Source: Natronomonas marina (GTDB lineage Archaea > Halobacteriota > Halobacteria > Halobacteriales > Haloarculaceae). Taken from it: 64,000 bases of DNA. Below the pieces are notes generated by a model that did not search any database, was not told the DNA's origin, and saw nothing but the letters and a program-made list of their open reading frames with translations. Shown here piece by piece: positions 21,718 to 24,243 of the stretch. The DNA lies in assembly GCF_024298905.1 (NCBI RefSeq), contig NZ_CP101154.1:434001-498000 (forward strand), read 5' to 3'. Made by a program: the position numbers and the translations under genes. Position 1 is the stretch's first letter. Each line of letters begins with the position of its first letter.

Positions 21718-21789
21718 GTCCGGGTTGGGGTATTGGCATCCTCCAGCCTTGTGGTGGCTGGGAAGTGGGTTCGATTCCCGCACCCGGAC
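21718..21789 (+). tRNA. tRNA-His (GTG)
   Basis: Cloverleaf with acceptor TCCGGGT/ACCCGGA, anticodon stem CAGCC/GGCTG around loop TTGTGGT (anticodon GTG), and T-arm GTGGG-TTCGATT-CCCGC. The extra G at -1 (21718) opposite discriminator C (21789) is the identity mark of tRNA-His. No intron, no encoded CCA. Confidence 0.95.
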
Positions 21790-21840
21790 TGATACTACCT
21801 CTTACACTATCGGCGGCAGATCGTTTCGCAGTCAACGTTT

Positions 21841-22032
21841 CTAATCCACCACATCGTGCCGGTCCGGGCGTTCGTGGAAGCGTCCGCTACGACCGAGGCC
21901 GACGCGCACTACCTCGAAAACGTCGTCTCGCTGTGTCCGTCCTGCCACCGGAGGGCGGAGTTCGGGGGCGTCGAACCGGACCGACTCCGGGAGGCAGTCC
22001 GACGGAGGACCGGTTCCGACGGGGCGAATTAG
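21841..22032 (+). pseudogene. HNH endonuclease C-terminal remnant
   Basis: Frame without a plausible start, encoding the C-terminal part of an HNH nuclease: LIHHIVPVRAFVE, DAHYLENVVSLCPSCHRRAE, then a short tail and TAG at 22030. The HH and N-H motif residues and CPSCH are intact, but everything upstream is missing; the frame is open only back to a stop at 21790. It starts about 50 bp after tRNA-His, so it is probably the leftover of an element that once integrated there. Confidence 0.8.
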
Positions 22033-22372
22033 GCCCCCTCTACCGTCGCGTCGGACCCAGTCGCGAGCGTTCGCCCCGACGGCCCGCTATCGCCATCCGT
22101 CGAACGGCGCGCGGAACGGCGCGAACGGTCGGTAGACGGCGTCTGCAACTTTTTGTATCGATAAACGTCCGGGTATAATAGGCGGAATCAAATTATGAAA
22201 CCAATGGAACGTTTAATATACCGGGGAAATGAGAGTGGACGTAAGCAGTCACCATCGGGAAAAACGGCGGGAGACCTCACCCCAGCCTCCACCGACGGAC
22301 GAGTGTTGGTGGGTACGGCACATAAACCCTCCCGGCCGTTCTCCCGACGTGAGACTGCGGACGAAACCAACC
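22033..22372 (+). promoter_or_regulatory. Promoter and leader region of the pilin gene
   Basis: 340 bp without a gene. A TATA-like TTTAATATAC is at 22212-22221, so the pilin mRNA would have an unusually long leader of about 125 bases before ATG 22373. A second AT-rich patch is at 22165-22195. Nothing else is evident. Confidence 0.5.
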
Positions 22373-22864
22373 ATGAAGCTAAACGAGTTATTAACGGACG
22401 ACGACGCGGTATCGCCGGTCATCGGCGTCATCCTGATGGTCGCGATTACGGTCATTCTCGCGGCCGTCATCGGGACCTTCGTCCTCGGTCTCGGTGACCA
22501 GGTCCAGAGTACGACGCCGCAGGCACAGTTCACGTTCAACGAACCCAGCAGCGGTGATGTCGACATCACACACGACGGCGGAGACCCCGTCTCCGCGGAC
22601 AACGTTGAAGTCGTCGACAGTAATAATAACGGACCGTTCTGTGACGGCGGCAGCGGTGACTGGGGAGCCACGGAAATTACAGCCGGTGACACCTGTACGG
22701 ACGTGAGCGGCCTCGGCAGCTCAGAGGGAACCCTCCGAGTCACCTGGGAGTCCGACGACGGTTCCAACAGTGGGACCTCAGAGGGAACCCTCCGAGTCAC
22801 CTGGGAGTCCGACGACGGTTCCAACAGTGGGACCCTCGCGACGTACGACTACGACTTCACGTAA
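22373..22864 (+). CDS. Archaeal type IV pilin-like protein
   Basis: 163 residues. Short charged leader MKLNELLTDDDA, then the class III signal and hydrophobic core AVSPVIGVILMVAITVILAA (about 12-31); cleavage by the archaeal prepilin peptidase is expected just before VSPVIG. The extracellular part is acidic and Ser/Gly/Asn-rich with two Cys (FCDGG, DTCTDV) that could form a disulfide. Residues about 117-154 are a perfect tandem duplication of a 19-residue unit. Probable role: adhesion pilus subunit. Single gene. Confidence 0.88.
   Translation: MKLNELLTDDDAVSPVIGVILMVAITVILAAVIGTFVLGLGDQVQSTTPQAQFTFNEPSSGDVDITHDGGDPVSADNVEVVDSNNNGPFCDGGSGDWGATEITAGDTCTDVSGLGSSEGTLRVTWESDDGSNSGTSEGTLRVTWESDDGSNSGTLATYDYDFT
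22720..22833 (+). repeat. Perfect 57-bp tandem duplication inside the pilin gene
   Basis: Bases 22720-22776 and 22777-22833 are identical. The unit is 19 codons, so the frame is kept and the pilin gains one extra 19-residue block (SEGTLRVTWESDDGSNSGT). Identity at the DNA level implies a very recent event or continuing homogenisation. Confidence 0.95.
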
Positions 22865-22936
22865 CGACCTCGGTCTTCATTTTTCGGACGCGTCGAAAGC
22901 CGATCAGCGACCGCTCTGGGACCACCTAATTAGTTC

Positions 22937-24157
22937 CTACCGACGTACTGTCCCGTCGGTGCCGTAACCGGAGCCTCCGACCGAGGAGTTCTCCCGTCCC
23001 GTACGGCCCGCGATCTCCCCGCCCTCCTTGACGATCTCCAGGGCGGTCATCACGTCGGTCCGGGAGAGGAGTCCGACGAGATCATCCGAGTCGTCGACGA
23101 CGAGCAGTCGCCCGATGCCCTGTTTTTGCATCGTCTCGAAGGCGTCCATGACGGGCGTGTCGGGCGTGACGGTGTGAAGGTCGCGGCTCATCACGTCCTC
23201 GACGCGGTAGGCGTCGCGTTCGACCTCGTCGACCCCGCGTGCGTCGGACAGCGTGACGATGCCGGCGACGCGGCCGTCGTCGAGAACCGGGTAGCCGGTG
23301 TGGCGCTCGCGGAACATCCGGTCGAGGAGGTCGGCGACCGACGCGTCGGGGGCGACGACGTCCAACTCGTTCCGCGGCGTCATCACGTCCCGGACCTCGA
23401 CCCCCTCGAAGGCGGCGTTCATCACGGTGCGGGAGGACTCGGAGGCGGCGGCGATGTAGATGAAGAAGGCCAGCACGATGAGAAAGACGTTGAAGCCGGC
23501 CAGCAGGCCGAACAGCCCGAGACCGATGGCGAACAACTGTCCGACGCGGGCGGCCTGCTGGGTCGCCTTCGCGTGGGGGCGACTCCGGGCCAAGAGCGCC
23601 CGCAGGATGCGGCCGCCGTCCATCGGGAAGCCGGGCAGCAGATTGAACGCCGCGAGGACGACGTTCATCGCCGCGAGATAGGCGAGCGTGAACCGCACCG
23701 CCTCGAGACCGAAGCTGCCCGAGGGGGTGACGAGGAAGGCGGCGTAGGCCAGGACGCCGACGACGACGGAGACGATGGGACCGGCGATGGCGATGTTGAA
23801 CTCCTTCTTCCAGTCCTCGGGAATCTCCTCCATCTGGGCGACGCCGCCGAGCAGCCACAGGGTGATGGACTCGATTGGCACGCCGTAGCGGCGGGCCACC
23901 AGCGAGTGGCCGAACTCGTGGGCGACGACGCAGACGAACAGCCCGATTGCGGCGACGCTCCCGATGCCGTACCGGGCCGGCGTCGATCCGGTCAGGACCG
24001 CCGCGTCGATGGTGGTCCCGAGCGTGTCGTTGAGCAGCGGCACCCACTCGCCGAGCTGGAACCCGATGACGTAGGCGAACACCGGCAGGACCAGCAGGAA
24101 CGTCAGGTCCAGCTTGATGGGGATGCCGAACGCGCTGCCGACGCGAAAGCTCTTCAT
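22937..24157 (-). CDS. Site-2 protease-like M50 metalloprotease with CBS pair
   Basis: 406 residues from ATG 24157. Membrane metalloprotease with zinc site VVAHEFGHSLVARRYG and third ligand in LLPGFPMDGGRILRALL, six or so membrane helices, then two CBS domains (about 245-370: VMTPRNELDVV, VMSRDLHTVTPD). It would cut membrane-anchored regulators inside the bilayer, with CBS domains sensing adenine nucleotides. Divergent from the cupin gene, 86 bp apart. Confidence 0.9.
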   Translation of the reverse strand: MKSFRVGSAFGIPIKLDLTFLLVLPVFAYVIGFQLGEWVPLLNDTLGTTIDAAVLTGSTPARYGIGSVAAIGLFVCVVAHEFGHSLVARRYGVPIESITLWLLGGVAQMEEIPEDWKKEFNIAIAGPIVSVVVGVLAYAAFLVTPSGSFGLEAVRFTLAYLAAMNVVLAAFNLLPGFPMDGGRILRALLARSRPHAKATQQAARVGQLFAIGLGLFGLLAGFNVFLIVLAFFIYIAAASESSRTVMNAAFEGVEVRDVMTPRNELDVVAPDASVADLLDRMFRERHTGYPVLDDGRVAGIVTLSDARGVDEVERDAYRVEDVMSRDLHTVTPDTPVMDAFETMQKQGIGRLLVVDDSDDLVGLLSRTDVMTALEIVKEGGEIAGRTGRENSSVGGSGYGTDGTVRR

Positions 24158-24243
24158 GGGTCGGAGTTGTCCCCGGAGGCGTAAATATCCGACCGGAGTC
24201 GTGGACCCGAGGGTTGGAGTGCGTCGGCCGCCAACGGAGGCGT

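Follow-up and report, generated by a model that had tools for sequence, protein, structure and literature searches.

Among the described systems, the closest to the pilin analyzed here is the Haloferax volcanii type IV pilin (8fj5), which has the same N-terminus and is both its top sequence match and its top fold match. The 8fj5 sequence, however, consists of 145 residues, and the phmmer match to it (2.3e-32) covers only residues 1-137 of the query, reaching through the first copy of a duplicated unit; because the match ends there, just one hairpin unit is matched to 8fj5. PilA1 (9myg) and PilA2 (8gi2) of Natrinema sp. J7-2, which are the second and third fold matches, share the N-terminal domain but differ in their globular domains, which have diverged (33% and 29% identity, respectively). 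The pilins of two congeneric species (genomes G010 and G011, loci L114 and L115) occupy the same chromosomal slot and carry the same C-terminal motif, TWESDDGSQTGT, but have a single copy of the unit and are encoded by two slot pilin genes, as against one in the host. In bacteria, contingency loci in surface proteins contain variable intragenic tandem repeats, with several units and often degenerate older ones.

The locus described here lies in a 64-kb stretch of Natronomonas marina DNA (the window, i.e., the entire stretch that was analyzed). Similarly to the bacterial contingency loci, it has a tandem repeat lying in frame within the gene for a surface protein, but there are only two copies, and no copy-number series was seen among the relatives examined. 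It is best explained, with a probability of roughly 80%, as a single, recent, lineage-specific 57-bp tandem duplication in a PilA-like type IV pilin gene, with a small likely effect. The literature search returned nothing on tandem-repeat copy number variation in pilins of halophilic archaea, on beta-hairpin duplication in pilins, or on bacterial intragenic tandem duplication by slippage with microhomology.

The duplicated unit and its pilin

Direct comparison revealed two identical 57-bp units (57/57 bases match) located head to tail and in frame at positions 22720-22833, so the original prediction of a perfect 57-bp tandem duplication in a pilin gene, with no loss of frame over its 19 codons, was correct on both counts. 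The frame is kept, 57 being divisible by three. Tandem Repeats Finder reported the same array (22720-22834, period 57, 2.0 copies, 100% match) with a score of 230, the highest of the 5 arrays in the window. A perfect repeat of 57 bases is far beyond chance. The array holds exactly two identical units, with no degenerate older units seen, and the match between the copies extends 1 base past the unit on the right and 0 on the left, which gives a junction microhomology of 1 bp. A search of the host genome with the unit, allowing up to 3 mismatches, found only 2 matches, both inside the array, which rules out a mobile or dispersed element. The features of the locus are listed in Table 1.

Table 1. 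Features of the pilin locus (window coordinates)
Feature	Position	Strand	Evidence or comment
tRNA-His(GTG), left border of the pilin slot	21718..21790	+	tRNA-His in 7/7 regions from related genomes
HNH endonuclease gene remnant	21823..22032	+	69-aa ORF, Pfam HNH 7.6e-06; N-terminal part missing
TTTAATA element, possible TATA box (putative function)	22212..22218	+	161 bp upstream of the ATG
Type IV pilin gene (PilA-like), 163 aa	22373..22864	+	Pilin_N, TIGR02537, phmmer to 8fj5 chain; DAVSPVIGVILMVAITVILAAVIGTFVLGLG (processing site and H-domain) near the N-terminus
Unit 1 of the 57-bp tandem duplication	22720..22776	+	Codon phase 22721-22777 encodes SEGTLRVTWESDDGSNSGT
Unit 2, same as unit 1	22777..22833	+	Followed by LATYDYDFT, last strand
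M50 metalloprotease with CBS domains, right border of the slot here	22937..24160	-	Pfam M50 1.9e-26, CBS 4e-28; synteny

The 163-aa ORF is matched by the Pfam domain Pilin_N (PF07790; E = 7.5e-26, 91.2 bits versus a cut-off of 25.2) and by the NCBIfam archaellin/pilin N-terminal domain TIGR02537 (E = 3.8e-13, 48.7 versus a cut-off of 20); the equivalog model for UpsA scored below its cut-off (21.6 versus 130). There is a second in-frame ATG upstream, at 22229; the start at 22373 yields MKLNELLTDDDAVSPVIG as the N-terminus, and five relatives have N-termini that align with it. The predicted prepilin peptidase site, DAVSPVIG, and the hydrophobic H-domain that follows it are intact, and DAVS is the site given for H. 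volcanii PilA3 in Table 1 of PMC4371748. The duplicated unit corresponds to a strand and the turn of the C-terminal beta-hairpin, and each added unit brings 19 residues with a net charge of -3. The protein contains no N-X-S/T sequon. The host genome has 11 Pilin_N matches, indicating many pilin paralogues, as well as 8 matches to the T2SSE-family ATPases and one to the prepilin peptidase family (PF01478); given these ATPases and the peptidase, the product is plausibly assembled into a filament. In the upstream regions of 11 slot pilins, the TTTAATA element was found exactly in 5 and its core, TTAAT, in 10, at the same place; if this element is the TATA box, the pilin leader would be long.

Distribution of the second copy

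The homologues in G010 and G011, located in the same slot between tRNA-His and M50, each carry the unit once and, over the C-terminal stretch, match the window pilin best. The C-terminus of the relatives that were read consists of one strand-turn-strand, such as TLRVTWESDDGSQTGTLADYEYDFTGS in G010, and it is the first strand with its turn that occurs twice in the window gene. When this gene is aligned to its G011 homologue, one 60-nt gap falls at the array, which equals the 57-bp unit plus 3 nt; gaps in the alignment to G010 are more scattered, yet a single unit is placed there, too.

Pilin matches were found in all 20 genomes of the genus, host included. Pilin-like ORFs were gathered by motif (201 distinct ones from 211 sequences, later 217 distinct ones from 225), and an internal tandem repeat was detected in just 1 of the 217, the window gene (score 19, the next best being 4.5), in what is a selected set rather than a census, the matches in 142 genomes having been fetched only in part. 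The strict strand motif occurs twice in the window gene, once in 85 ORFs, and not at all in 131, which makes this motif alone a weak count.

A 48-aa query spanning both copies matched sequences in 7 of the 146 genomes of the family (host included) and in 34 of the 392 genomes of the order, and no second two-copy gene was seen among these matches; duplicated hairpins with strongly divergent sequences would escape such a query. None of the 12 family-search rows from other genomes starts before query residue 14. The order search gave 20 rows outside the host that start at residue 13 or earlier, and each of them, when read, proved to be a single hairpin preceded by unrelated sequence. These include the apparent two-copy counterexamples in G195 (residues 4-44), G287 and G299 (both 8-44), and G016 (8-46); the longest rows of the order search, which formally span much of both copies, have low identity (37-38%). 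A scan of viral contigs for relatives found 5 stretches that fit the pattern, none of which encoded a relative. The original prediction had set copy-number variation against a single fixed copy number, and with regard to relatives, all those examined are single-copy.

Predicted structure

The best AlphaFold model of the window pilin, built with 6 sequences, has a mean pLDDT of 67.1 and a pTM of 0.50 (across the five models, pLDDT spans 67.1 to 47.2). It consists of an N-terminal helix (residues 15-41) followed by strands, with copy 2 forming a strand at 137-145 that is followed by a strand at 152-161, whereas residues 112-133, comprising most of copy 1, have pLDDT below 50. In the model of a single-copy relative (pLDDT 72.2), the corresponding strands are at 131-137 and 144-151. 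The choice of the looped-out copy is weak, because the input alignment has a gap opposite copy 1 and so favors a copy 1 loop; the alignments are thin, because the scan of genome contigs yielded 2 loci from 38 pattern matches. Foldseek searches with this modest-confidence model found 8fj5 as the best fold match (E = 2.3e-10, TM 0.49/0.59), and 8fj5 was also the best match for the single-copy relative. The predicted fold, with a long N-terminal helix and a beta domain, is thus like that of the solved archaeal pili.

The chromosomal slot

The slot between tRNA-His and the M50 or cupin gene (window 21718-24160; loci L114 to L120) holds 0, 1, 2, or 4 pilin genes and is thus a small hotspot where pilins are gained and lost. 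In the 8 genomes examined of the 20 in the genus, slot pilins number 1 in the host, 2 in each of G010, G011, and G009, and 4 in G012, with 0 matches in G014, G007, and G004. In G009 and G012, the pilins are followed by a cupin gene, with no M50 match between. One of the slot pilin matches in G012 contains an internal stop. Another slot pilin, in G010 (L114:5551-5943), has a shortened H-domain (LAAVITEPQAQF, compared to LAAVIGTFVLGLGDQVQSTTPQAQF in the window pilin) and therefore may not assemble normally.

The 69-aa HNH ORF of the host matches the last 52 residues (39/52 identical) of a 265-aa HNH protein encoded beside tRNA-His in G009 (L119:5070-5864), and ORFs of 263-265 aa are found at the HNH position in L114, L117, L118, and L120 as well. 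In addition to the intact M50/CBS protease gene, the slot contains fragments that resemble the C-terminal part of its product (L114:6021-6352 and L115:7998-8117), suggesting local duplications there.

Age and origin of the duplication

The two copies differ at 0 of 57 positions, compared with 15 of 57 between the unit and its counterpart in G011 and 11 of 57 for G010. The recent expansion proposed originally is therefore supported: the unit was doubled after divergence from G011 and G010, unless the copies have been homogenized. Gene conversion could keep the copies identical, so that "recent" is not strictly proven. The absence of differences bounds the divergence of the copies to about 5% (95% level, assuming independent evolution), and the age is bounded only roughly, because the nearest homologues belong to other species (best protein identity, 68% over residues 1-135).

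Within about 0.79 Mb of distinct sequence from the host and related genomes, a sample chosen around pilin and M50 genes and not at random, four places have perfect tandem duplications with periods of 20-399. Their periods are 76, 61, 57 (the window array), and 30 bp; this count sets aside an N run in L120 and takes as one place the 30-bp array, for which two units are listed. Neither 76 nor 61 is divisible by three. Open frames contain the 61- and 30-bp arrays, but none is open across the 76-bp array. Duplications of this size are rare, yet they are present elsewhere in these genomes, and since three of the four lie at other places, the location of this one in a pilin gene need not mean anything. 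A paper on archaeal type IV pilins describes certain pilin genes as prone to tandem duplication.

We infer that the change went from one unit to two. One C-terminal beta-hairpin unit would have been copied once through replication slippage or illegitimate recombination, with 1 bp of homology at the break; homology being nearly absent, slippage or illegitimate joining fits better than recombination between existing repeats. The product is a pilin longer by 19 residues, in which the N-terminal processing site and H-domain, which drive assembly, are unchanged. Most likely, copy 2 occupies the native position of the hairpin, and copy 1 would protrude from the globular domain as an additional acidic loop. 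This extra copy would remain open to loss by ordinary deletion between direct repeats.

Alternative explanations

Direct repeats that are perfect and in frame can gain or lose units, and this gene might be a contingency locus, in which the number of hairpin units shifts often by slippage or recombination and generates surface variants of the pilin that evade viruses or change adhesion. The change indeed falls in the C-terminal beta domain and alters the net charge by -3 per unit, and filamentous surface structures are described in PMC7911016 as usable by viruses for reaching the cell. Nevertheless, the array has two copies only, without degenerate older units, no other pilin with at least two units was found among the 217 ORFs or the matches to the two-copy query (146 family and 392 order genomes), and the genome has many pilin paralogues (11 Pilin_N matches) instead; this makes such a locus improbable. 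Even less probable is the related idea of a hairpin module that varies naturally, with cells of the species carrying pilins of one, two, or more units and the number being selected by pilus-binding viruses or surface adhesion. The mechanism of antigenic or virus-receptor variation suggested in the original prediction thus finds no support in an array of just two identical units that has no counterpart with two or more copies in the other pilins examined. Its other suggestion, pili of variable length, is rejected: a longer subunit should not lengthen the filament, and at most the filament surface would change.

Somewhat likelier than either form of copy-number variation, although still doubtful, is a damaging duplication, whereby the 19 extra residues disturb folding or packing and the pilin is becoming a pseudogene. 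In its favor, the adjacent HNH gene has been cut down to a C-terminal remnant, pilins are gained and lost in the slot (0 to 4 in 8 genomes), one slot pilin match in G012 has the internal stop, and the single-copy relative gave a better model than this pilin did (pLDDT 72.2 versus 67.1). However, the frame, the N-terminal processing region, the H-domain, and the final strand are all intact, the upstream element is kept, and the model retains the C-terminal hairpin. An assembly or sequencing artefact is the least probable of all these explanations. Tandem repeats can be misassembled, but this array is just 114 bp long, in a genome that comprises 2 contigs with 99.98% estimated completeness, so reads would normally span it.

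Implications

A single recent duplication remains the preferred explanation, and the consequence of the extra 19 residues and three net negative charges is probably little or none. This looks like an ordinary small mutation in an ordinary pilin gene, and nothing found here supports a surface-variation switch. The duplication would matter more only if the copy number varies within the species. As it stands, it offers a clean natural case of an in-frame duplication that lengthens the globular domain of a pilin while leaving the parts needed for assembly intact.
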